This document shows, one piece after another, positions 1,951 to 26,257 of a DNA stretch of 26,759 bases; position 1 is the first letter of the stretch; each line of letters opens with the position of its first letter. The translations under genes and the position numbers were made by a program. The stretch comes from a virus. Location: positions 1-26,759 of IMG/VR virus record IMGVR_UViG_3300010883_000356; one strand, written 5' to 3'. The notes below the pieces were generated by a model that was given only the letters and a program-made list of their open reading frames with translations, ran no database searches and was not told the origin of the DNA.

Positions 1951-4800
1951 ATGTCAATAAACATAAACGATCCTATAACAAGTGTATCTATAACAGAGCA
2001 ATCTCAAAAGCTAACAATTGTAGATAGCAATACAGGCACGTCTACCACCATAACTCCTACGTCAGATAATGTGGTAACTATTTCAACTGTTGGGTTCACC
2101 GGACCAACAGGTCCAGCGGGAGCTTCTGGAAATGAATCACAAACATTCTTTTCTACAGGACTCAGACTTGGTGACTCAGCAATAACCGGATCTCTAACTC
2201 TGAGTGGTAGTGGACATATAACAGCATCTGGAAATATATCTGCAAGTGGTAATATAATAGGTCTAAATTTAATCGCTGATAGTGCTTCATTTAGTACAAG
2301 AACAACCACTTTAGAAGGTAACGGAGTGTTTACGTCCGAAAGCATTTCTGGATCGTTCTTTGCACCAAGTGCTTCATTCAGTACAAGAGTGACTGCAAAT
2401 GATGCCAAGATAAGCTATACAGATGCAGCAGTAACAAGTGTAATCCATACCGCAAATATAATAAGTAGTTCAGCCCAAATTGCAACAGACATCAGTGGAT
2501 CGTTCTTTGCACCAAGTGCGTCATTCTCAACTAGAGTGACTGCAAATGATGCCAAGGTTACCAATTCAAATCAAAGCTTAGTACATTTGGCAGTAACCTC
2601 TAGTAATGTTATTTTTGGAGAAATAACAGCATCTGGTAATATATCTGCAAGTGGAACAATCGTTGGTTCTAATTTAAGTGGAACAAACACCGGTGATCAG
2701 AATATATCTAATCTAGCAGTAACCTCAAGTAATGTAATTTTTGGAAACATAACAGCATCTGGTAATATAAGCGCAAGTGGTACACTTACAACTGCAAATG
2801 CTAACCACAGTGGAAGTTTTATACACAGTGGCTCATTTACTGTGTATGGTGGTGTAGGAGCGGAAACATCTTCGGGTACTGTTGAAACATCTACCTTTTT
2901 TGGTGATGTTGACATTCGAAATGTAGGATCTTCGCCAAATGAACGATTCGGGCCTCCTAGATCCTTACGTATTTGGTCGTATAACTCATCTTCGATTATA
3001 CTTAAAAATCTCAGTGCATGGAGTGAAACTCACATTACAAATGGATTTGGTGGGACTATAGCAATAGATGAAAAAGGAACCAATGCAACAGGAGGGGGTA
3101 GATTAGTACTTGGAAATAATTCTCCAGCAAATGAAGACGTATCTTATTTATGGGTAAGAGGTAAATATGGAGATGGTGGGAGTGCTGATTTTGATCCAAA
3201 TATTTACTTAGGACCTAACTCAACAGCTTACTCAGCCCAAATTGGCTTAACTAATGCTGTTAACAACTATGGTCATGATGTTTATATAGCAGCCCAGAAT
3301 GGAACTACAGGTAAAGCATACTTCATATTTGGCAGGGATGCACAATTTAAAGCAGAATCAATATTTGTGGGTCCTATCGATGGTACTGCAGCCACAGGTG
3401 CAATAACAGCCTCAGGTCATATATCTGCAAGTGGTACGATAGTAGGGTCTAATTTAAGTGGAACAAATACAGGTGATCAGAATATATCTAATCTAGCAGT
3501 AACTTCAAGTAATGTGTTGTTTGGAGAAATCACGGCTTCAGGTAATATAAGTTCAAGTGGTAATGTTTACGCAGCAGACTATTTTGATAATGGCGCTAAT
3601 ATAAGTACATTATACGCCCCTGTTCTTGGTGGTAATGACAATTATGTAACCGATACACAATTAGTGGTAATTGGAAACACAAGTGGCACAAATACTGGTG
3701 ATCAGAATATATCTAACCTAGCAGTAACTTCAAGTAATGTATTGTTTGGAGATATAACATCATCAGGCGATATAAGCGCAAGTGGGGATCTCTATGGTGA
3801 TGTATACTATTCCAATAACATTAGATTTTTAGTAGCATCATCAACTGGAACGCAACTAGGATATGTTAATACTCCCACTGAAATAGACGGGACACATATA
3901 AAATTAGATGCCCCTGTCACAGCATCAACTATAAGTTCGAGTGATTACATTTATGCCTCTAATATAGTTGCAGCCGGAAATTGCAAAGGAAATCAAATCT
4001 TGGCTGGAGGGCAGGTTGCACTTAAAACAGGTGATGCTACATTAACAGGAAAACTATTTGTAAATCCTAATACTACTAAAGTTGAAATAGGTCAATCTGG
4101 TGTAAATCAATCTGTTAATATATTTGGACAAATCACATCCTCAGGTCATATATCTGCAAGTGGTACGATAGTAGGGTCTAATTTAAGCGGAACCAATACA
4201 GGTGATGTGACAGTTACAGGAACACCGGATTACATTACCCTATCCAACCAAGTACTAACAAGAAATCAAATAGTGTTAACGACCGATGTCACAGGTGTGT
4301 TACCATCAGCTAATCTAGACGCTGATACAGCACACTTAACAACTACACAAACATTCACAGGAGCAAAAACAATAGAAACTAGAGTATTTGCTGCACCTGG
4401 AGGTACTGATGGAAATATATGTGGAGATATTGTTAAATTCGGAACCACCGACGTTGACAAAGGTAAAGTATATTATTTTGATTCAACTGGCATTGCCGGC
4501 GATTGCTGGACATTAACTAATGCTACCACAGTCGCCAACTCCAAAGGTCTATTAGCTGTTGCCATGGGAGATGGAAACGCTAATTTGGTGGGCATGTGTA
4601 TAAAGGGTAGAGTAAATCTTAGCCATACCCCGGGGGCAATTGCGTCTGTGCTGTATCTAAGCGAAGACACCCCGGGATTCGCCACAAGCACTTCACCAGC
4701 AGCAAGTGATGAAGTTGTAAGAATTATTGGATATGCATTAACTGCAGATGGTAGTGATGTTTGGTTTAATCCTGATAGCACATATGTGGAGATTGCATAA
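1951..4800 (+). CDS. Repeat-rich tail fibre / receptor-binding structural protein
   Basis: 949 residues, rich in G, S, T and N, with low-complexity repeats typical of trimeric beta-structured fibres. Near residue 50 it has a short collagen-like GPTGPAG. A unit of the type ITASGNISASG with GTIVGSNLSGTNTGDQNISNLAV recurs about four times, and GSFFAPSASFSTRVTANDAK occurs twice. The last ~130 residues (GDIVKFGTTDVDKGKVYYFD onward to DVWFNPDSTYVEIA) have a distinct, non-repetitive character and may be a C-terminal beta domain. AAGGA ends 5 nt before the ATG at 1951. The stop overlaps the next ATG by one base (TAATG), so fibre and methyltransferase are translationally coupled. Host recognition is inferred from family style; no enzymatic motif is visible. 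Confidence 0.8.
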   Translation: MSININDPITSVSITEQSQKLTIVDSNTGTSTTITPTSDNVVTISTVGFTGPTGPAGASGNESQTFFSTGLRLGDSAITGSLTLSGSGHITASGNISASGNIIGLNLIADSASFSTRTTTLEGNGVFTSESISGSFFAPSASFSTRVTANDAKISYTDAAVTSVIHTANIISSSAQIATDISGSFFAPSASFSTRVTANDAKVTNSNQSLVHLAVTSSNVIFGEITASGNISASGTIVGSNLSGTNTGDQNISNLAVTSSNVIFGNITASGNISASGTLTTANANHSGSFIHSGSFTVYGGVGAETSSGTVETSTFFGDVDIRNVGSSPNERFGPPRSLRIWSYNSSSIILKNLSAWSETHITNGFGGTIAIDEKGTNATGGGRLVLGNNSPANEDVSYLWVRGKYGDGGSADFDPNIYLGPNSTAYSAQIGLTNAVNNYGHDVYIAAQNGTTGKAYFIFGRDAQFKAESIFVGPIDGTAATGAITASGHISASGTIVGSNLSGTNTGDQNISNLAVTSSNVLFGEITASGNISSSGNVYAADYFDNGANISTLYAPVLGGNDNYVTDTQLVVIGNTSGTNTGDQNISNLAVTSSNVLFGDITSSGDISASGDLYGDVYYSNNIRFLVASSTGTQLGYVNTPTEIDGTHIKLDAPVTASTISSSDYIYASNIVAAGNCKGNQILAGGQVALKTGDATLTGKLFVNPNTTKVEIGQSGVNQSVNIFGQITSSGHISASGTIVGSNLSGTNTGDVTVTGTPDYITLSNQVLTRNQIVLTTDVTGVLPSANLDADTAHLTTTQTFTGAKTIETRVFAAPGGTDGNICGDIVKFGTTDVDKGKVYYFDSTGIAGDCWTLTNATTVANSKGLLAVAMGDGNANLVGMCIKGRVNLSHTPGAIASVLYLSEDTPGFATSTSPAASDEVVRIIGYALTADGSDVWFNPDSTYVEIA
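2350..2556 (+). repeat. Direct repeat inside the fibre gene (two ~60-nt copies)
   Basis: Copies at about 2350-2409 and 2497-2556 both begin GGATCGTTCTTTGCACCAAG and end with GACTGCAAATGATGCCAAG, with only a few mismatches in the middle. They encode the repeated peptide GSFFAPSASFSTRVTANDAK. Confidence 0.85.
2646..4207 (+). repeat. Dispersed direct repeats inside the fibre gene (four copies, one partial)
   Basis: A unit of roughly 110-130 nt starts near TGCAAGTGG, contains GGTGATCAGAATATATCTAA and runs to the ITASG-type coding segment. Copies are at about 2646-2766, 3426-3550, 3679-3785 and a truncated one at 4152-4207, where the sequence turns into GGTGATGTGACAG. Copies differ by scattered silent changes, which suggests old duplication followed by drift or exchange. 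Confidence 0.8.
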
Positions 4801-5360
4801 TGGCATATATAGATGAAATATTAATCTTTGAATCCGATAAGGTCTATTACACAGAAGAAGGTATACAGATAGAAGTAATGATGGGATGGGAAGATCCTTT
4901 AATGTCAGGCTCTGCTGCGTACGTTTGTAAAGATGGTGGAGATATTCTAGAAATAGGATTCGGAATGGGTATATCAGCAGGGTATATGCACTCCCATTCA
5001 ATAGCATCCCATACAATAATAGAAAACCACCCAGACGTAATTCCAAGGGCTCAAGCTTGGGCAAGTGGAAAATCCAATGTAACAATAGTTACTGGTAGTT
5101 GGTATGATATAAAAGATTCCTTAACAACATATGATGGAGTGTTTTATGATGCCTTTGGAGATGAGGATCAGATACACTTTTCCTCTTCATTATCCTCTTT
5201 GGTAAAAAAAGGAGGGGTAGCTACTTGGTGGAATAGCCATCCAAGTGAAACAAACTTTTTTGATATCCCTAATGTAACCTATCAACAATATTCCGTTAAC
5301 CCTCCTACAAATACCTATTTTAATAGTACAAATTATTACCTACCCACATGGCAACATTAA
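4800..5360 (+). CDS. SAM-dependent guanidino-N-methyltransferase-like protein (GAMT/RMT2 type)
   Basis: 186-residue class I methyltransferase. Motif I is ILEIGFGMG (49-57). HTIIENHPDVIPRAQAWA (71-88) matches the guanidinoacetate methyltransferase pattern HWIIECNDGVFQRLRDWA, with E75 as the likely adenosine-ribose ligand. VMMGWEDPLM (27-36) matches GAMT VMERWETPYM, and YDGVFYDAF (111-119) matches FDGILYDTY, so the two acids that bind the guanidino group in GAMT (E45 and D134 in the rat enzyme, from memory) have counterparts E31 and D117. GGVATWWN (138-145) aligns with GGVLTYCN, with W in place of the Cys. The protein is shorter than GAMT (about 236), mainly at the N-terminus. It overlaps the fibre stop by 1 nt and the next gene by 13 nt. 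Likely substrate: an arginine side chain or small guanidino compound; this is inference. Confidence 0.8.
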   Translation: MAYIDEILIFESDKVYYTEEGIQIEVMMGWEDPLMSGSAAYVCKDGGDILEIGFGMGISAGYMHSHSIASHTIIENHPDVIPRAQAWASGKSNVTIVTGSWYDIKDSLTTYDGVFYDAFGDEDQIHFSSSLSSLVKKGGVATWWNSHPSETNFFDIPNVTYQQYSVNPPTNTYFNSTNYYLPTWQH

Positions 5361-6135: not shown

Positions 6136-7290
6136 ATGGCAACAACAAGCATTTGGCCAGGGTCATCATCATTCTATCCAGGCGACACACCGTTCGGTAG
6201 TTATGATAAAGAAAAGGCCTTCCAAGCAGACATTGAAAAGACGGCCGTCTGGTGCGCAAAGCGTATTGGGTATCCTATTGTTGATATTGAGTTGCAAGAT
6301 ACTCAATTTTTTGCATGCTTTGAGGAAGCTGTAACAGAGTATAGTTCACAAGTAAATAGATTTAACATACGAGAGAACTTATTAATAGCTAAAGGTAGTG
6401 CAACTGGATCAAGTCTAACACACAAAACAGTTAAGCAAAATCTAAACCAGCTTATAGGCATATCATCACAGTACGGACAAGAAGCAACTTCACCTGTCGG
6501 AGGTGATATGAAGTTGTACAGCGGATCCATAACATGTGCTTCCGGTCAACAAACATACAGCTTGCTTAACGGTGCACAGACAACATTTGAATCAGGGACG
6601 CCAGGAACAGATCCAGTTGAAATACGGAGAGTGTTCTTTGAATCTTCACCTGCAATGACCCGTTTCTTTGATCCACACATTGGCTCAGGGTTAGGTTCAC
6701 AACAAATGCTAACATCATTTGGATGGGGAAACTTCTCACCAGCAATTAACTACCTACTAATGCCAATGTATGATGATCTACTAAGAGTGCAGGCAATTGA
6801 ATTTAATGATCAAATAAGAAAGTCAGCGTACTCATTCCACCTTGTTGGAACAGATTTAACTATTTTTCCAATTCCGACATCAACATTTAAGTTAAGATTT
6901 CAATACTTTAAGAAAGCAGAACGAACAACACTAATTACATCTGCAGCCGTATCTGATTTTTCTAATATCGGGTATGACGATATGAAGTATGCTCAGATAA
7001 ATGCACCTGGTAAGCAATGGATTCGGAAGTACACATTAGCGTTAACTAAAGAGCTGTTAGGCTCTGTCCGCGGCAAGTACGGTACAATGCCAATACCAAA
7101 CGGTGACGTTTCACTAGATGGTGATACACTGAGATCGGAAGGAGCTGCAGAAAGAGATGCATTAGTAGCAGAGTTGAGAGAAGATTTGGAAGCAGCATCT
7201 CGCCGACAGTTAATGGAAAGACAAAACGACGAAGCTAATTTTCAACAGGAAACGGTAAATAAAATACCACTTAATATATACGTAGGTTAA
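6136..7290 (+). CDS. 13: Neck protein, gp13-like
   Basis: 384 residues (T4 gp13 is about 309). Near residue 40 the segment WCAKRIGYPIVDIELQDTQF with FEEAVTEYSS matches the gp13 N-terminal pattern (kRxLGyPvxdIevdddQlxdrvdeAlqyf). The C-terminal part KQWIRKYTLALTKELLGSVR, then PIPNGDVSLDGDTLRSEG, matches the gp13 ending. By family knowledge gp13 and gp14 close the filled capsid and form the neck on which the tail docks. Start ATG 6136 has AGGAG upstream. Two bases separate the stop from the gp14-like ATG, in the classical 13-14-15 order. The extra length lies in the middle beta-rich region (about 110-215). Confidence 0.78.
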   Translation: MATTSIWPGSSSFYPGDTPFGSYDKEKAFQADIEKTAVWCAKRIGYPIVDIELQDTQFFACFEEAVTEYSSQVNRFNIRENLLIAKGSATGSSLTHKTVKQNLNQLIGISSQYGQEATSPVGGDMKLYSGSITCASGQQTYSLLNGAQTTFESGTPGTDPVEIRRVFFESSPAMTRFFDPHIGSGLGSQQMLTSFGWGNFSPAINYLLMPMYDDLLRVQAIEFNDQIRKSAYSFHLVGTDLTIFPIPTSTFKLRFQYFKKAERTTLITSAAVSDFSNIGYDDMKYAQINAPGKQWIRKYTLALTKELLGSVRGKYGTMPIPNGDVSLDGDTLRSEGAAERDALVAELREDLEAASRRQLMERQNDEANFQQETVNKIPLNIYVG

Positions 7291-11770: not shown

Positions 11771-11983
11771 ATGGCTACGTATGTAACAGGAAATACCAAT
11801 GTTAAAGTTATCGTAGGGACGGTCACTGCAACACATGATAAGACACTTGTAGGGTCACTAGCTAAGGCTGTGTACGATTATATAATTACATTAGATGCAA
11901 CAGACAGCAAGATAATATCTGTTGAAGCTAAACCAGCTGGGTATGGTAACACTGTTATTGTAACAATAGTTAGCGGAGCATAA
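11771..11983 (+). CDS. Small unknown protein, copy A of a tandem pair
   Basis: 70 residues, predicted all-beta or alpha/beta with no charged cluster and no signal peptide. It is about 56% identical (39 of 70 positions, ungapped, counted by eye) to the protein encoded 3 nt downstream. Shared blocks are VGS near residue 27, KIIS near 47 and PAGYGNT with the ending IVSG. The ATG comes 10 nt after the tube stop. Such a small, strongly placed protein may be a decoration or accessory virion protein, but I recognise no family. Confidence 0.7.
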   Translation: MATYVTGNTNVKVIVGTVTATHDKTLVGSLAKAVYDYIITLDATDSKIISVEAKPAGYGNTVIVTIVSGA

Positions 11984-11986
11984 TTT

Positions 11987-12199
11987 ATGGCATTGTATCA
12001 TCCACTAAGCTCAAGCGTTAAAATTATATTAGGCACGGTTACCTCAACACAAGACTCAGCTAGTGTTGGATCATTCGCAAGTGCTGCATATGCCCACGCG
12101 GTAACATTAGATTCAACAACTAACAAGATAATATCATTTAATATCGAGCCAGCTGGGTATGGTAATACATTTATTGCAACCATAGTTAGCGGAATTTAA
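11987..12199 (+). CDS. Small unknown protein, copy B of a tandem pair
   Basis: 70 residues and paralogous to the preceding gene with no gaps in the alignment; the two differ mostly in the first 10 residues and in the helix-like middle (ASAAYAHAV versus AKAVYDYII). The conserved C-terminal PAGYGNTFIATIVSGI is the best-kept part. It closes the sheath-tube unit, with a terminator hairpin 25 nt further on. Function is not recognised. Confidence 0.7.
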   Translation: MALYHPLSSSVKIILGTVTSTQDSASVGSFASAAYAHAVTLDSTTNKIISFNIEPAGYGNTFIATIVSGI

Positions 12200-16914: not shown

Positions 16915-19900
16915 ATGGCAGGCTTCAGAGGAATATTTTTAGATTCAATACACCCTTTAGTTGTTAAGCGGTTAGATGCAGATCATGCCGCTTTTAAGCA
17001 AATGTCAATGCAGTATGATACTAATTCGGTCGGAGATGCAACCAAATCATTACCGCAGTATACGAGTACTAACGAAGGAGCTAGGTACTTTTCTGAGCGT
17101 CAAGTATGGATTCGTGTTGTTCCATTTGCAATACCACAAACGGAATACACAACACAGCCAGGGATGATTTTGCAAAACCCACCAGGAGAAGATGGTTGGA
17201 CAGTACCGGAATGGAGAGATTGGGTGATATGGGGTACAAAAGCAGCAGGGATACATAGTGAAGGTGCACCGTATGGAGTACAGGCCTCAGGATTACACAG
17301 TAATACTGTTGGAGGGTGGGGACAAAAGCATGGACTGTATAGGAGAACATCAGAAGCATGGGATGGAGCACAGTCAGCAGGTATACTGAATTCACCACTC
17401 CCGGGAGTCACATCACTACAGGTGAGTAATAAAGGGGATCTAGGTACTATACGTAGAGCGTCTTTCGATATAAAAGTACATAACCTCGCGGATTTAGAAG
17501 CTATAGAAATGATGTACATGGTACCAGGCATATCTGTACTAATAGAATGGGGATGGTATCATCCAGACTTCCCTAATCAGATCGAGCCCATTGATGTAGA
17601 GTTAATAACAGATGGTGCACCATTAGCATCAACAACACTAATTAACACAGAAATATTAAAAAAATCTTTTGGTGTTGGTGGTGGAAGTGCACCGGGTGAT
17701 CCCACTGCACTTTATAATCTTGAAGAAGTGTCAAACGCGCAGTTTGGACCTATGGGCCCTGGAGCAGGGACATATGACGGCTTGTTAGGCGTTGTAACAA
17801 AGTTTAATTGGTCTAACGACGGTCAGGGAGGGTATGATTGTAGAATAGATGTAATATCACCGGGATCATTAGCAACTGGAATCCCCGCGGAAAGTTTCCC
17901 TTTGGGTGGTAGCATAACGATCGACAAACAAGATATTCCTATATCGGATGTTGGTACTATTGTAGCTACTATTAAAAAGCACACGCGGGTGTTCGAAGGA
18001 GACGTCACAGCGGACTTCGTAGCTAACGATGCTTCATCAGCCTACAATAAAATTAGGGTAAGCACTAATAATACACCAGGTGAGGTGGAATTGTCCGATG
18101 GTGACACGGACTTCGATTTCAGTATACCCTCCAAGAAGATAAATACCAGTACCTTCGGTATTAAAATTACTGCAGGTGAGGATGGTGCACTTAAATATGA
18201 CGCTTCAGAAGAAACTGAAGAAGATGGTGAGTACTTTGTGGGTGATTATAAAGGTGGTATACGTGAAAAGATAACACCAATTTACGGGGATAGGACATGG
18301 TGGAACAAGGTGGTAAGCTACTGTTTGCACGGATTCGTGGGTACAGGTTTACGAAGTAGTAAAGATAATCTCAAGAGCGCCATGAGAATCAGGGGAGCAG
18401 TAAGACCGGATTTCACTTTGGAGAACCTTATGAAGTGGGTGGGTGGAGCTGGCTCGATACGAGATCGCGTCCGAGAAATCATGGACGTGGTAGGTGACTT
18501 GGATGACGACTATGGGCTTTTCTTCATGGAGATAAATTACGGAGAACAACTTAGAAACGGTAAATTTATCGTTTATGAAAGCGGAAACGGAGGGAATGCC
18601 GATGTTCGCCTAGATAGAGCTGTCCGCTGGAGATATACCTCATTTGCCATAAAATCTGCAGAAGGGCCGTATGTTGCGTCCCTAAATTTAGGGTTCAACA
18701 AAGGCTTTATTTGGTTTAGTTACAAAAATTACTGGAACCCAGAGCATGTCAACGGCTTGCAAGTAAACATGGAGCTCCCAAACCAGGACGACGTCCCTCT
18801 AGGCAATAGAAAACTCGCGGCCACCACAAACGACATACCTGGTGTATCATATGGAAAGGGCATTAATGATCGTGCACGGGAATACGGGTGGAAAGTCGAT
18901 TCTGACTCCGGGGAGATACAGGATGAGGGGTCTGGTCTTGCTGTAGAGACAGGAGGCTGGACGGCCGGTGACAATAGTGATTTCGATCCTATTTTAATAG
19001 AGCAGCAAACAGGATCCACAATATACAAGAAGTCAGAGAGTGAAGACGGTACAGTAACCTACACAGAAGTCGCGTCTATTGAAAACACCAGCGCAGAACA
19101 AATTACCAAGATGATTCAGCAAAAGGCCGAGAAAATGACACTCGCGGATGTTGAGGTAGCTCAGGCAGAGACTGCAGAAAACATCGCGAAAGACGCAGAG
19201 ATCACAGGTAACGCATCCAATTTCGGAGCTGTGACTTGGGGAGGCCCTTTCTCTCCGGATAAAAAGCCAGTAGTCTTTGGACACGGATCTAACACAGGAA
19301 TATACGCTAAGGTCTGGCCAAAGTTTGCACCTAAACTACATTACATACCAAGCACAGGGCAATTTATATCATCGGAGTTAGGATATGAGACCGCAAATAC
19401 CGGTGCTGGTGAACTGATATTTCCTATAGGAATGGTAGCATATGGTGAAACATACTTAAGTTGGAGATTTGTAGAGGATTATTTATTAAACGAGCTATAT
19501 ATGCCTAGAGCTGAACAGCCCGGTGTCGATAAGAATCCCGACCCATTTATAGCGTTAGAAACAACGTTTCTATCTGCGAACCGTGCATCGGACGAAGAGA
19601 AGAAAATGCTATCAGATGAGTTCTTAAAAGCTTTCCAAGGGTTGATTGAAAAGGATGGTGAACAACTAACAGACGAATCACGAGACCGAGAGACATACAA
19701 CTCACAGCATATAATAAATCACATTACATTGAGATCATACAACCCAGAGGTATGTATACTACCAGGCCAAGAAACAATACCACCACTGGTGGTGGAAAAC
19801 GCAGGAGGCTATTCGGTAACACCACCTGGAAGTCAACACATGTTAGATGAAATGCCCGACTCTCAAGTCGATTTAAATATAAAAGGGGCCACTTGTCTCA

Positions 19901-21528
19901 ATCCTTTTGCAGGAATAAATCAGGAGGGTGATAGAGATCCATCGCTAGGATCTTTACGCAACATTATGATTAATTCTGATCTAATCCAAGAAGCTGCAGA
20001 TAAAGCTCCGAATGTTCGTAAATTTTGTATGTCGATTTTAGATAAAGTTAACCGAGCTTGCGGCGAGCCATGGAAGTTTAAAATGCTAACAAACTCTGCT
20101 TTAGGTAAGATAAGTATTATTGACGAAAATTACACCCCTCCCGGTAATGTAAGCGATTACGGGTTAGGATACACATACATGGATACAGGTACAGATGGTA
20201 CAAATAAAGTGGGTGTTTATAAATTTACCGGGATAGGGTCGGACAACATATTAAAGGATGTTAAAGTACAATCTAAAATACCTTCTGAACTACAAACCAT
20301 GGCATACTACGCTACAATGGGTACAGGCAATGAAAAGGGATCATCGATTCAAATGTTTAATATGTACAGAGGTGGTGTCGTCGATAGGTTAAAATCCATA
20401 TCAAACATAACGGTACTAGGTAATGAGACAGGGTCTGAAGCTTCACGCGCTAAGGTATCTGCAGATCTAATTACATCGTACATGGAACTCCTTCCTAAGA
20501 CTAGACTCAACCAAGTGAGAGGTACCCCTGGACCAGAAACACTTGCAGGGGAGCAGATTGCTAGACAGTATGTACGTAAATATATACATGGTAACACGGT
20601 AGACATAGGCGGGTACAGACCTCCAATGCCTATTGATGTATCGCTATCTTTACATGGTGTTTCTGGTATATTTATGGGAAATGCAATAATGATTAAAACT
20701 ATGAAGGAGGGTGGTATATTACCAAACAGGTACTATAAAAATGTTGCTCTCCAAGCCACAGCTGTAGATCACACAATATCTCCGGAAGGTTGGTCCACGG
20801 AAATATCTACGCTAATGAGACCGTTAGCAGATATGCAGACAGGGGCACCGATAAGTGTTATAGTCAGAGCTGATGCAACAAACCATGATCAAGGAGCTGA
20901 TGTATATAAATGGGCTCAGAATTGGAGAGACACGAGTGAGCCAAATCTACGAAAACCAATCCCTGAAGCACAAGCCGGAGACCAAGCATTAGCAGACAGA
21001 GCAGGAATACCAGTTAATATCCTCCGCGCTGTAAGAGCAGTGGAGTCAAGTGGGAGACCAACGGTATTACGCTTCGAGCCTCATAAATGGAAATCGTTTG
21101 GTGATGGTGTAACTTACCCTGTCACTGGATTTACACTAGGTTACAAGTCAGATGGTACACCATTGAAGTACTCAACGACGAGAGCTGAAACTAATCGAGC
21201 TGCGTTTGAAACCAATTACGCTATAAACCCAACACTAGCTGTGAAATCAACGTCTTTTGGATCATACCAAGTAATGGGCGAAAGTGCCATAAAGCAATAT
21301 GGTACAGCTGAGGCTTTTTGGAAACATTTTAACGAAGATCCTACAGCAGCGTCAGATAGGTTGTTAGTGCAGTGGTTTAAGGATGCCCCAACGGCCATCG
21401 CCGCGGCTAACGTCACACCAATCCCAGATTTTGTAAAGTTAGCTACAAGGTATAACGGCGGTAGCCAAGCCGATCATCACTACGATGCTTTAATCGCTGA
21501 AGCTTATGATAAAGCTACACGCTTATGA
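16915..21528 (+). CDS. Giant baseplate hub protein with C-terminal N-acetylmuramidase domain
   Basis: 1537 residues, the largest gene here. Residues ~170-205 (DLGTIRRASFDIKVHNLADL, then VPGISVLIEWGW) look like a hub/spike beta domain of the kind found in large baseplate proteins of marine myoviruses. The middle (~350-1300) is not recognised. The last ~180 residues match the N-acetylmuramidase family (DUF3380): ADRAGIPVNILRAVRAVESSG with the probable catalytic Glu at 1377, FEPHKW, SFGSYQVMG (1447-1455) and RYNGG (1512-1516). By position after tape measure, gp48- and gp53-like genes it should do the jobs of gp27 and gp5, with a muramidase of a different family in place of T4 gp5 lysozyme. ATG 16915 is 2 nt after the previous stop; no good Shine-Dalgarno, so coupled translation is likely. 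Confidence 0.8.
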   Translation: MAGFRGIFLDSIHPLVVKRLDADHAAFKQMSMQYDTNSVGDATKSLPQYTSTNEGARYFSERQVWIRVVPFAIPQTEYTTQPGMILQNPPGEDGWTVPEWRDWVIWGTKAAGIHSEGAPYGVQASGLHSNTVGGWGQKHGLYRRTSEAWDGAQSAGILNSPLPGVTSLQVSNKGDLGTIRRASFDIKVHNLADLEAIEMMYMVPGISVLIEWGWYHPDFPNQIEPIDVELITDGAPLASTTLINTEILKKSFGVGGGSAPGDPTALYNLEEVSNAQFGPMGPGAGTYDGLLGVVTKFNWSNDGQGGYDCRIDVISPGSLATGIPAESFPLGGSITIDKQDIPISDVGTIVATIKKHTRVFEGDVTADFVANDASSAYNKIRVSTNNTPGEVELSDGDTDFDFSIPSKKINTSTFGIKITAGEDGALKYDASEETEEDGEYFVGDYKGGIREKITPIYGDRTWWNKVVSYCLHGFVGTGLRSSKDNLKSAMRIRGAVRPDFTLENLMKWVGGAGSIRDRVREIMDVVGDLDDDYGLFFMEINYGEQLRNGKFIVYESGNGGNADVRLDRAVRWRYTSFAIKSAEGPYVASLNLGFNKGFIWFSYKNYWNPEHVNGLQVNMELPNQDDVPLGNRKLAATTNDIPGVSYGKGINDRAREYGWKVDSDSGEIQDEGSGLAVETGGWTAGDNSDFDPILIEQQTGSTIYKKSESEDGTVTYTEVASIENTSAEQITKMIQQKAEKMTLADVEVAQAETAENIAKDAEITGNASNFGAVTWGGPFSPDKKPVVFGHGSNTGIYAKVWPKFAPKLHYIPSTGQFISSELGYETANTGAGELIFPIGMVAYGETYLSWRFVEDYLLNELYMPRAEQPGVDKNPDPFIALETTFLSANRASDEEKKMLSDEFLKAFQGLIEKDGEQLTDESRDRETYNSQHIINHITLRSYNPEVCILPGQETIPPLVVENAGGYSVTPPGSQHMLDEMPDSQVDLNIKGATCLNPFAGINQEGDRDPSLGSLRNIMINSDLIQEAADKAPNVRKFCMSILDKVNRACGEPWKFKMLTNSALGKISIIDENYTPPGNVSDYGLGYTYMDTGTDGTNKVGVYKFTGIGSDNILKDVKVQSKIPSELQTMAYYATMGTGNEKGSSIQMFNMYRGGVVDRLKSISNITVLGNETGSEASRAKVSADLITSYMELLPKTRLNQVRGTPGPETLAGEQIARQYVRKYIHGNTVDIGGYRPPMPIDVSLSLHGVSGIFMGNAIMIKTMKEGGILPNRYYKNVALQATAVDHTISPEGWSTEISTLMRPLADMQTGAPISVIVRADATNHDQGADVYKWAQNWRDTSEPNLRKPIPEAQAGDQALADRAGIPVNILRAVRAVESSGRPTVLRFEPHKWKSFGDGVTYPVTGFTLGYKSDGTPLKYSTTRAETNRAAFETNYAINPTLAVKSTSFGSYQVMGESAIKQYGTAEAFWKHFNEDPTAASDRLLVQWFKDAPTAIAAANVTPIPDFVKLATRYNGGSQADHHYDALIAEAYDKATRL

Positions 21529-22059: not shown

Positions 22060-23325
22060 ATGGTAGTAGATAGTGAAGATATATTATCTGCGCTCAAGAA
22101 AGATTACGCGAGCTCTGATTCTATAGTAATTCCTATATATAGTGATATTCGTAAACATCGAGTTAATAATCGAGTATCTCTATTATATATTTATATTATA
22201 GATACCAGTAAGGAGTATGTAATACTTATCAATCACTCTGATAAGGTATTCTCTGTAGATGAGCTGCAGTTTATAAATAACGATAAGTGCAAATACACGT
22301 ACAGTTCAGGTATAACAAACTCTATAAATATAGATGCTCTCTACTATATGAGTAATTTACATAATATTAAAACGGAAGAGATACACACTCCAGCGCATAC
22401 GCACTTCTATAATAAGTATTGGAGGTTGGATAATATAAACGACATAATTCCAGTGTTAAAGCATGTAGAGTATTGTGGTAAGGTTCGTGATATTGTGTTA
22501 GACATAAGGGAAAATAGGTCTATGCAAGGATTTGATGAGTATAATAGACAAGTAATACCAGCATTCAAATCTATAGAAAATAATGGATTGGCCACTAACA
22601 GTGGAGTGGAGTACACTAAATATAATCTATGGTCAATTACAGGAAGGCCTAGCAATGCATTCGGAGGTATAAACTACGCAGCATTAAAGAAGGATGACGG
22701 CACTCGTGGGCGATTTGTAAGTAGATTTGATAAAGGTAAGTTGGTTGAGTTTGATTTCGATGCATACCATCTGCGACTAATTGCTAAAATGATTAACTAT
22801 GAATTGCCTAACACCTCAATACATACATACTTAGGAAAATACTATTTTGGCAAAGATCTGATAACAGTTGATGAGTATAACGAATCAAAATCTGTAACAT
22901 TTAAAATATTGTATGGTGGAGTGCCTAAAGAGTTTGAGAATATACCATTCTTTGGTAAAGTTAAACAGCACATTTTTGAAGTCTGGGATATTTATAAGCG
23001 TAAAGGTTATGTAGAAACACCTATATTTAAAAGAAGGCTGTATGCTGAGAATCTTAAGGATAGGGATATAAAACCTCAAACATTGTTTAACTATATGATC
23101 CAAGCTATGGAAACAGAGCAGAATGTTCTTATAATTAACGAAATACAGGAGATGTTAAAAGAGTATCAAACTAAATTAGTGTTATATACGTATGATGCAC
23201 TGCTATTCGATCTACATCCAGATGAAACCGACCTGTTGAATATGATAAAGGAAAAAATGATTTATCCAATAAAATGTACCACGGGACATAATTATAATAA
23301 AATGGAAGCCTACAATTTTGAATAG
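22060..23325 (+). CDS. Compact family-A (Pol I-like) DNA polymerase, divergent
   Basis: 421 residues. The C-terminal ~240 carry the family-A palm and fingers. YNLWSITGRPSNAFGGINYA (188-207) matches the T-x-x-G-R-x-S...N region. Motif A is LVEFDFDAYHLRLIA with D232 as catalytic Asp. Motif B is KSVTFKILYGG, keeping K277, F281, Y285 and G286 of the Klenow K-F-Y-G set. KPQTLFNYMIQAMETEQNVL (338-357) is the conserved helix, and motif C is LYTYDALLFDL with D379. The Klenow residues E710, R754, H881 and E883 are replaced here by H237, Y273, Y378 and A380. The N-terminal ~170 residues are short and have no clear DEDD exonuclease motifs. AAAGG (22049-22053) precedes the ATG. A polymerase among late tail genes is unexpected; T4 uses family B. 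Replication, repair or gap-filling roles are all open. Confidence 0.85.
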   Translation: MVVDSEDILSALKKDYASSDSIVIPIYSDIRKHRVNNRVSLLYIYIIDTSKEYVILINHSDKVFSVDELQFINNDKCKYTYSSGITNSINIDALYYMSNLHNIKTEEIHTPAHTHFYNKYWRLDNINDIIPVLKHVEYCGKVRDIVLDIRENRSMQGFDEYNRQVIPAFKSIENNGLATNSGVEYTKYNLWSITGRPSNAFGGINYAALKKDDGTRGRFVSRFDKGKLVEFDFDAYHLRLIAKMINYELPNTSIHTYLGKYYFGKDLITVDEYNESKSVTFKILYGGVPKEFENIPFFGKVKQHIFEVWDIYKRKGYVETPIFKRRLYAENLKDRDIKPQTLFNYMIQAMETEQNVLIINEIQEMLKEYQTKLVLYTYDALLFDLHPDETDLLNMIKEKMIYPIKCTTGHNYNKMEAYNFE

Positions 23326-23332
23326 GCTTTTT
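23306..23332 (+). terminator. Terminator hairpin overlapping the polymerase stop codon
   Basis: AAGCCTA (23306-23312) pairs with TAGGCTT (23323-23329) over a 10-nt loop and is followed by more T (to 23332). The polymerase stop TAG is in the 3' arm. The next promoter-like element begins in the T tract itself. Confidence 0.65.
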
Positions 23333-23346
23333 GATATTTATATATA
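23331..23346 (+). promoter_or_regulatory. Putative late promoter element after the polymerase gene
   Basis: TTGATATTTATATATA starts 24 nt before the ATG at 23355. A TTG start at 23331 would lie within the element and is therefore unlikely. Confidence 0.6.
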
Positions 23347-23354
23347 GAAAATTT

Positions 23355-25409
23355 ATGAATTATTTTATACACAAAGCGTTAACAGATTGGGCATATAAAG
23401 TCAACGACGGCTGCCCAGACCCACAGAACAGAACTCATATGCAAGTTCTCGAAGCTGTATTGCGTCAGCATGGCTATCCAGAAGATTTTATTTCGGAGTA
23501 TATACCTCGTGTGCAAGATCCAACGCGATCATCATGCAAAACATTTCAAGAATTTTGTGTTGAGGTTGGTAAGACGCTCAGCGAAGATAAATTATTAACC
23601 GAAGCTTCTGCTTGGGATAGTAAATATACCGTTGGAACGGAGTTTATATCTATATTAAATACAGATGATTTATTTAAAAGTGGTGGAGTGACGCCTCCGA
23701 AAGGTCCATTCTACAAAGCCGCGCCCACCGAGGATGCAATACAGGTTAAAGTATCAGGAACAGGTATACTATTTTATATAAAATCAGGAAATGATGTATA
23801 CAAAATAGAAGGTGGAAAACAGCTCAAAGGTATGTTTGGTAAAGTGAAAAAAGGTAAGTCGGGATCAAATGTTAGCTGGGGGGAAGCTACATTAGAATCA
23901 GCTGCCTGTACAGGATTATATTTCGATGCAATCTCTCATTACAAAAAGGTATTTAGCCCTAACGTAACACTAGCGGATCAGCAAGCTGCAATATCAGCAT
24001 TCGAAGGAGCTCTTACAGGTGAATCAGCTGGCGCATCAGGATTAAAGGGCAAGCTAACTGCGATACCAGATCTATTATCTGCTTTGGAGCTAGCAATCGG
24101 TGTACAAAAATTTGCGGAAGCTCATGGTTGTAAGGGTTGGAATTTTATACATAAGAGTATCAAGGAGTTTTATGATGCTGGTGAGGAAAATGATAATCTT
24201 GATAAGAAAGGGTTTAAAGATAACACAGCGGACACAATAATAACAAAATCCAACCCTTCCACCTTGATAGCGAATATTGCAACAGACAAAGTAACATTTG
24301 ATAGTAGCGGAAAGTGCACAACAGAATCAGGAGATGAGTTCTACCAAATTAGTAATAAAAAATCTGATGGTGGTGCTCAATTAGGTAGAATTGTAAAGAG
24401 TTTTAGAGATATGTATGGAACTAAGACACCAGGGGATACGTGGAGACTACAGCTTACAACAGAAATACTTGAACATGGTGACTCTCTATTTATACTAAAC
24501 GAGGGGTTAGCAGACTACTTCAAACAAGGGTTAAAATTCCTTAAGGATAAATTTACGTCACTATTAGCTGTAGCTAAGAGTAAGGTAGCTACATTCGGTA
24601 GCTCCATTGTAAGTAAGCTATCTATCAAAATCACCAAACCTAGCTCTACTTTAGATAAGTTTATGAAGGGTAGATATGCCAAGGGCGTTAAGCAACTTGG
24701 CGAAGCTAAGAAAAAGTCCAAGAAATATACATATTGGGAATATGCAGAGATGGTTAGCCAACTTGCTATCGATGGTAATATGTCAGAGTTGAAAGCGCTA
24801 CACGGTAAAACTGCCGATGAGTGGAAAACACTCAAAAAGTTACTAGATATTCCTATGGATGGGATTGATGGTACAAAGGGGTCAAACGGTCCCAAATTAA
24901 TAACTCCACCTTCCGTTAAAGACGGTGCACATTATGCTCTAAAGCTAATGACAAATTTTATGGGATACGAGCACTTAACAGCAATGTTAAAAAATAAAGC
25001 TGGAGCTGTCAAGGAAGTTTCAAGAGTATTAGAGGAGTTTGTAGAGTTAGAGAAAGAGATGTATTTCGGTAGAACAGAACTGCCGTTATTCAAAGTATAC
25101 GGAACTGATCCAGGCGGTAAGGCATACCAGTTTTTAAAGAGTGGTAAAGAGTTTAGAGAAGATAGATTAAACGCTATGGATATGGGTGATGCAGTCAAAG
25201 ACGGTAAATATATACCCGGTGTAGTTGTTGAATCAAGTGTCCAAACGGCTGGACATGCCTCTGTTAAAGTTTGGATTTTACAATCACTTACAGAGAGCGG
25301 GGTAACCTACACTCAGGTTGATATGAGATCCAGTGATCCTGATACACTATCATTCTCAGTAAGTGGTGGTAGTATAATACGAGGTGATTTAGTATTAAAA
25401 AGGCTCTAA
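23355..25409 (+). CDS. Large unknown protein with conserved N-terminal motif
   Basis: 684 residues from ATG 23355; a possible TTG start at 23331 lies in the promoter-like element and is rejected. The first ~45 residues (ALTDWAYKVNDGCPDPQNRT, HMQVLEAVLRQHGYPEDFIS) follow a pattern I have seen at the N-terminus of several large phage proteins (W-xx-V-x-DGxPDxxNxxHxxxLxxVL), where the rest varies. Residues ~75-190 look beta-rich. The region ~370-470 is lysine-rich and helical (YFKQGLKFLKDKFTSLLAVA). The C-terminus is beta-rich again and ends SGGSIIRGDLVLKRL. No catalytic motif is visible. It has its own terminator/promoter boundary on the 5' side. It may be an internal or surface virion protein, but the function is unknown. 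Confidence 0.7.
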   Translation: MNYFIHKALTDWAYKVNDGCPDPQNRTHMQVLEAVLRQHGYPEDFISEYIPRVQDPTRSSCKTFQEFCVEVGKTLSEDKLLTEASAWDSKYTVGTEFISILNTDDLFKSGGVTPPKGPFYKAAPTEDAIQVKVSGTGILFYIKSGNDVYKIEGGKQLKGMFGKVKKGKSGSNVSWGEATLESAACTGLYFDAISHYKKVFSPNVTLADQQAAISAFEGALTGESAGASGLKGKLTAIPDLLSALELAIGVQKFAEAHGCKGWNFIHKSIKEFYDAGEENDNLDKKGFKDNTADTIITKSNPSTLIANIATDKVTFDSSGKCTTESGDEFYQISNKKSDGGAQLGRIVKSFRDMYGTKTPGDTWRLQLTTEILEHGDSLFILNEGLADYFKQGLKFLKDKFTSLLAVAKSKVATFGSSIVSKLSIKITKPSSTLDKFMKGRYAKGVKQLGEAKKKSKKYTYWEYAEMVSQLAIDGNMSELKALHGKTADEWKTLKKLLDIPMDGIDGTKGSNGPKLITPPSVKDGAHYALKLMTNFMGYEHLTAMLKNKAGAVKEVSRVLEEFVELEKEMYFGRTELPLFKVYGTDPGGKAYQFLKSGKEFREDRLNAMDMGDAVKDGKYIPGVVVESSVQTAGHASVKVWILQSLTESGVTYTQVDMRSSDPDTLSFSVSGGSIIRGDLVLKRL

Positions 25410-25855: not shown

Positions 25856-26257
25856 ATGCAAACACAATTATTATGCACATTCACTAACCAGCGGAGATTG
25901 AGAAAAACAATCGATACAGTTGTGGATGCGTATGATGTAATTTTTAATAAGATATTTGTACTTGAAGATGTAGATAATACCTTTGATGTAATGTGTACAT
26001 ATAATATAGATAAGGTAGTTGATAACACTCAATTAGAACATACAATATCTTTACATAGAAAAAAACAAACAAACACACTGTATACAATCAATGCTTTAAA
26101 CAGAGCCATTGAAGCGTGTAACAGCGGTGTATTAGATACCTCTTTCCAGTTAGACTGGGAGCAGTATAGCAATTGTATATTGCTTACAAATGAGAGTGGA
26201 TTACGCAGAATCGATACAGTGATTCATGATATAATTCATATAAAAGTTAAAAAATAA
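25856..26257 (+). CDS. Conserved phage protein of unknown function
   Basis: 133 residues. The pattern LCTFTNQRRLRKTIDTVVDA, IFNKIFVLEDV, CTYNIDKVVDN, then LHRKKQTNTLYTINALNRAI and TSFQLDWEQYSNCILLTN is one I recognise as recurring in marine T4-like and related phages without an assigned function. Mixed alpha/beta fold, no motif of known enzymes. AGGA at 25842-25845 with the ATG at 25856 gives a somewhat long spacing. It is the last protein gene before the tRNAs. Confidence 0.7.
   Translation: MQTQLLCTFTNQRRLRKTIDTVVDAYDVIFNKIFVLEDVDNTFDVMCTYNIDKVVDNTQLEHTISLHRKKQTNTLYTINALNRAIEACNSGVLDTSFQLDWEQYSNCILLTNESGLRRIDTVIHDIIHIKVKK

Follow-up and report, generated by a model that had tools for sequence, protein, structure and literature searches.

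The window (the whole stretch of DNA analysed, 26.8 kb long) is part of a T4-like phage: a Gp23 capsid protein is encoded at its left end, followed by PhoH, tail sheath, tail tube and baseplate genes, as identified by PHROG and Pfam matches. A megablast search of the window against isolated phages gave no match. On the plus strand, an open frame at 22060-23325 (ATG at 22060, stop codon at 23323-23325) encodes a product of 421 aa. It lies after the tail genes and ahead of the replication cassette known from relatives; the "tail/late region" in which a previous sequence-only reading had placed it is therefore the border between tail genes and replication cassette, and not simply late. The features of the locus are:

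22060..23325, plus strand: divPolA1, small family-A DNA polymerase, 421 aa (PF00476, homology to the immuto divPolA1, tree, AlphaFold2 model)
22060..22449 (boundary approximate), plus strand: shrunken, predicted dead 3'-5' exonuclease-like domain, N-terminal ~130 residues (superposition, no exonuclease Pfam match, I26/S28)
22450..22584 (boundary approximate), plus strand: thumb, apparently reduced, modelled as two long helices over residues ~132-175 (DSSP of the model, placement from the Pol I superposition)
22753..22770, plus strand: motif A, D232-F-D-A-Y-H237 (D232 and H237 in 86/86 covering rows of the family alignment)
22876..22917, plus strand: motif B, Y273...K277...F281...Y285-G (Y273 in 85/87 rows; K, F and Y in 88/88)
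23191..23199, plus strand: motif C, Y378-D379-A380 (Y and D in 88/88 rows)
23331..25409, plus strand: conserved neighbour of 692 aa with the N-terminal motif DWAYKVNDGCPDP (same start motif 3' of divPolA1 in the related loci L003, L006 and L010)
25856..26257, plus strand: conserved small neighbour, MQTQLLCTF... (same place in L003, L006, L010 and L063)

The product matched the Pfam family PF00476 (DNA_pol_A) over residues 214-400 (E=3.2e-11), with a score of 43.2 bits, above the curated cut-off of 34.3. Two matches to DNA polymerase families of PHROGs, at E=6e-14 and 2e-7, agreed with this. These profile matches, together with the motifs, bear out the minimal, divergent family-A polymerase that had been proposed from the letters alone. 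The product is 33% identical to the divPolA1 of Flavobacterium phage immuto_3-5A (E=2e-52). In a maximum-likelihood tree built on the palm/fingers region, which contains several long branches and whose inner order is unsure, one branch with 100/100 support set off 26 small polymerases, and the window polymerase was monophyletic with divPolA1. Thus, on sequence grounds, the gene encodes a member of an already published family, and it is a new example of it, not a discovery.

In the text of Yutin et al. 2024 (Virol J 21:200, PMC11348598), divPolA1 is described in 14 phages, immuto included, as an additional PolA in genomes that also encode a regular polymerase of family A, B or C, with the exonuclease inactivated, the thumb shortened and conserved replication genes downstream. 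The immuto and window proteins do not differ in kind, both being small, with a dead exonuclease and an intact palm. Indeed, the palm with conserved catalytic residues and the inactivated exonuclease that define divPolA1 are present in the window product, and the downstream replication genes are found in the relatives L006, immuto and Mel-JY01. To this knowledge we add a family-wide His/Tyr/Tyr active-site signature, as read from the alignment, and several hundred further IMG/VR loci.

The IMG/VR scan found 385 stretches encoding relatives, 80 loci of which were kept; scanning with gp32, the gene linked to it, added further loci. The carriers are widespread T4-like (Gp23/PhoH) aquatic phages, in which divPolA1 is a conserved second polymerase. 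A cellular origin was rejected: in one scan covering 84,980 genomes of prokaryotes, no more than two relatives turned up, both on contigs assigned to MAGs (Winogradskyella and Flavobacteriales) and of unsure value for naming a host.

The dN/dS against the 94%-identical relative L001 was 0.096 for the whole gene and 0.057 in residues 231-421, and it ranged from 0.12 to 0.16 among relatives 72-80% identical and from 0.13 to 0.25 in a second subclade. Such low values across comparisons (0.096 to 0.25) indicate strong purifying selection and not chance. A degraded remnant is ruled out by dN/dS and by the invariant motifs.

Conservation of the active site was assessed on a family alignment of 88 distinct rows, fragments included, in which each position is covered by 84-88 rows. 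Alignment to Taq polymerase identified D232 and D379 as the two metal-binding aspartates, and placed H237 at the position of the steric-gate Glu (Glu710), Y273 at that of the motif-B Arg (Arg754), F281 at that of Phe762, and Y378 and A380 at those of the His (His881) and Glu of the HDE. The catalytic aspartates, the motif-B K-F-Y and the His, Tyr and Tyr/Ala substitutions had thus been read correctly in the sequence-only reading. Other motif residues of the product are R196 of the TGR and N344/Q348. K277, F281, Y285, Q348, Y378 and D379 were found in 88/88 rows and N344 in 87/88, while residue 380 was Ser in 68 rows and Ala in 20. Position 273 was Tyr in 85 of 87 rows and Arg in the other two; Arg occupies it in L149 (ORF at 7105) and L144 (ORF at 2), which may be natural reversions or an early branch.

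Then, we compared these positions with nine regular phage PolAs, all of which have Glu, Arg and His at the three sites. Their motif C reads HDS in 6/9 cases, so the change of the motif-C Glu to Ala/Ser, which had been counted among the substitutions, is ordinary, whereas the change of the preceding His to Tyr is peculiar. The peculiar changes are therefore Glu to His, Arg to Tyr and His to Tyr, and the alignment indicates that they are real. The usual Glu710, Arg754 and His881, which Pfam membership does not require, are absent from the window product, and the His/Tyr/Tyr combination marks, at the sequence level, a divergent subfamily inside family A. A discussion of the three linked pocket substitutions was not found in the passages of PMC11348598 consulted.

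The AlphaFold2 model, built from an alignment of 53 members, reached a pLDDT of 90.5 and a pTM of 0.87. Its residues 1-417 superposed on the large fragments of Pol I (Klenow, Bst and Taq) with Z of 24-26.5 over 336-396 residues at 14-18% identity, and Foldseek agreed with this match; the window product is ~120-160 residues shorter than the Pol I large fragment and has three pocket residues replaced. Since the superposition involves the whole chain, the first ~130 residues occupy the place of the 3'-5' exonuclease domain. No 3'-5' exonuclease Pfam family matched the 421-aa product, and I26 and S28, which in an alignment made by eye fall opposite the Asp and Glu of exonuclease motif I, are non-acidic across the family. 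Acidic residues are kept in this region at position 61 (70/70 long rows) and position 90 (63/70), and no conserved acidic set matching the exonuclease motifs was found in the N-terminal part of the family alignment. H33, H59 and the acidic residue at 61 are almost invariant within the domain (22060-22449). Model and alignment thus identify the N-terminus as a shrunken, predicted catalytically dead exonuclease domain: the motifs are lacking, as had been noted, but an exonuclease-like domain is present. Bst and Taq likewise have a dead exonuclease domain. Between this domain and the palm, only two long helices (132-175) are seen, in the model alone.

Regular phage family-A polymerases (CRP-3, Herelleviridae and the 777-aa PolA of immuto) share with the window product the palm/fingers fold and the motif order, but they are 678-1070 aa long, keep the Glu gate, the motif-B Arg and the motif-C His, and form a separate group in the tree. 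The divPolA2 of Vibrio phage AUR84708 is likewise a small second PolA in phages with PolB; compared by sequence alone, it gave no significant blastp match to the window product (E=0.75) and no match to the divPolA1 profile. According to the text of Yutin et al. (PMC11348598), its N-terminal domain differs from that of divPolA1. Rhodothermus phage RM378, which is T4-related and has a 522-aa polymerase without an exonuclease domain in the same chain, had been suggested as a parallel; the parallel fails because this polymerase, Rm378p092, belongs to family B (PF00136, E=2e-33), whereas the window product belongs to family A.

The window stops short of the replication genes, and the gene order matches in L003, L010 and L063. 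The 692-aa neighbour (23331..25409) had no Pfam or PHROG match. In L006, the genes 3' of divPolA1 encode gp32, RecA/UvsX, a 5'-3' exonuclease, a DnaB helicase and ribonucleotide reductase (Pfam and PHROGs), and immuto and Mel-JY01 are annotated with genes of these kinds at this place. The polymerase gene lies upstream of gp32 in 26/28 of the gp32 loci examined; the other two say little, because less than 4.5 kb of upstream sequence is available there. In the relatives inspected, divPolA1 heads a conserved gp32-UvsX-5' nuclease-helicase cassette. In immuto (NC_055915.1 34089-34883; L087 13090-13884), divPolA1 is found together with genes of the queuosine pathway and one for a DpdA-like DNA guanine transglycosylase; therefore, immuto DNA may be modified.

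The sequence-only reading had proposed looking elsewhere in the genome for a family-B polymerase and a primase, and we ran this search in the relatives, on 24 records, one of them a MAG and 16 of them virus records of at least 49 kb. A regular exonuclease-bearing polymerase was found in 15 of these 16: family B in 14, each with the PolB exonuclease domain, and family A in immuto, whose 777-aa polymerase has its own exonuclease domain and stands besides divPolA1. The sixteenth record, a 63-kb contig, ends ~0.5 kb past the small polymerase, and seven fragments below 49 kb gave no regular polymerase, as fragments would. A DnaG-type primase was present in all five records of at least 160 kb (the Toprim_2 profile alone detected four), so a role of divPolA1 in primer synthesis is unlikely. 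For the window, a fragment of 26.8 kb, a regular polymerase is expected by analogy with relatives, the nearest one with PolB being L006, at 72% identity.

Taken together, we consider divPolA1 to be probably an accessory polymerase, active but of low processivity and without proofreading, that fills gaps or carries out recombination-linked synthesis. This reading draws on the family membership, the dead exonuclease motifs, the intact two-metal motifs, the purifying selection, the linkage to the cassette, the presence of a regular polymerase in related records and that of a primase in the near-complete ones; against it stands the replacement of three active-site residues usual in family-A enzymes. 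Catalytic activity is very probable, and low processivity and a part in gap filling or recombination are predicted. The compact, Klenow-shaped enzyme would extend 3' ends across short stretches, and its putative partners are the products of the genes that follow it closely: gp32, a UvsX/RecA-like recombinase, a separate 5'-3' nuclease and a DnaB-type helicase. For example, it could fill gaps after primer or flap removal, thus acting as a split DNA polymerase I, or alternatively it could extend recombination intermediates and damaged ends, while bulk copying would be left to the regular, proofreading enzyme, which in most relatives is of family B. Its small size and missing proofreading could also suit divPolA1 as a tool enzyme.

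A larger part in replication may nevertheless be played by divPolA1, considering that the text of Yutin et al. (PMC11348598) takes the conserved replication cassette as a sign of its involvement in replication and calls what the regular polymerases do "less obvious". The argument is coherent with the position of divPolA1 at the head of the helicase/gp32/recombinase cassette in every relative inspected, and it would make divPolA1 the main replicase, as the sequence-only reading had also suggested, or one of two replicases dividing the labour, with another task for the regular polymerase. We regard this as unlikely: divPolA1 is without proofreading, the PolB of Mel-JY01 adjoins clamp loader genes, and the separate exonuclease-bearing polymerase found in 15/16 of the relatives of at least 49 kb makes a main replicase improbable.

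It is conceivable, though we would not expect it, that the linked Glu710-to-His, Arg754-to-Tyr and His881-to-Tyr changes together rebuild the nucleotide pocket and give it a substrate or template preference unseen in other family-A enzymes, such as ribonucleotide-tolerant, modified-base or lesion-bypass synthesis. Across the family the three changes are invariant or almost so (85-88 rows), none of the nine regular phage PolAs has them, and in Pol I Glu710 is known to act as the steric gate (PMC13228545). The changes offer a sharp prediction on substrate choice. That a changed choice of substrate (ribonucleotides, modified or damaged bases), with a pocket rebuilt for lesion bypass or mixed DNA/RNA synthesis, is what the enzyme exists for seems rather improbable, as His is bulky and may still exclude the 2'-OH, F281 at the Phe762 position is invariant, and a primase is already encoded in all near-complete relatives. 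Finally, the dead exonuclease domain and the three replaced nucleotide- or primer-contacting positions could point to a catalytically dead polymerase that the replication complex retains for DNA binding or as a scaffold; this is very improbable given the invariant metal-binding aspartates and Lys, Phe, Tyr and Gln positions and a dN/dS that is lowest in the palm/fingers half.

Other features were observed in the remaining part of the window. In the tail region, two adjacent 70-aa genes (11771-11983 and 11987-12199) are clear tandem copies, the first of which had no Pfam match. A tail-fibre-like protein of 949 aa with repeated segments (e.g., SGNISASGTIVGSNLSGTNTGDQNISNLAVTSSNV) is encoded at 1951-4800, and the adjoining gene, at 4800-5360, encodes a 186-aa methyltransferase-like protein (Methyltransf_25, E=6e-5, below the curated cut-off). 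The 1537-aa tail-region protein encoded at 16915-21528 carries a C-terminal N-acetylmuramidase domain (PF11860, E=3e-11).
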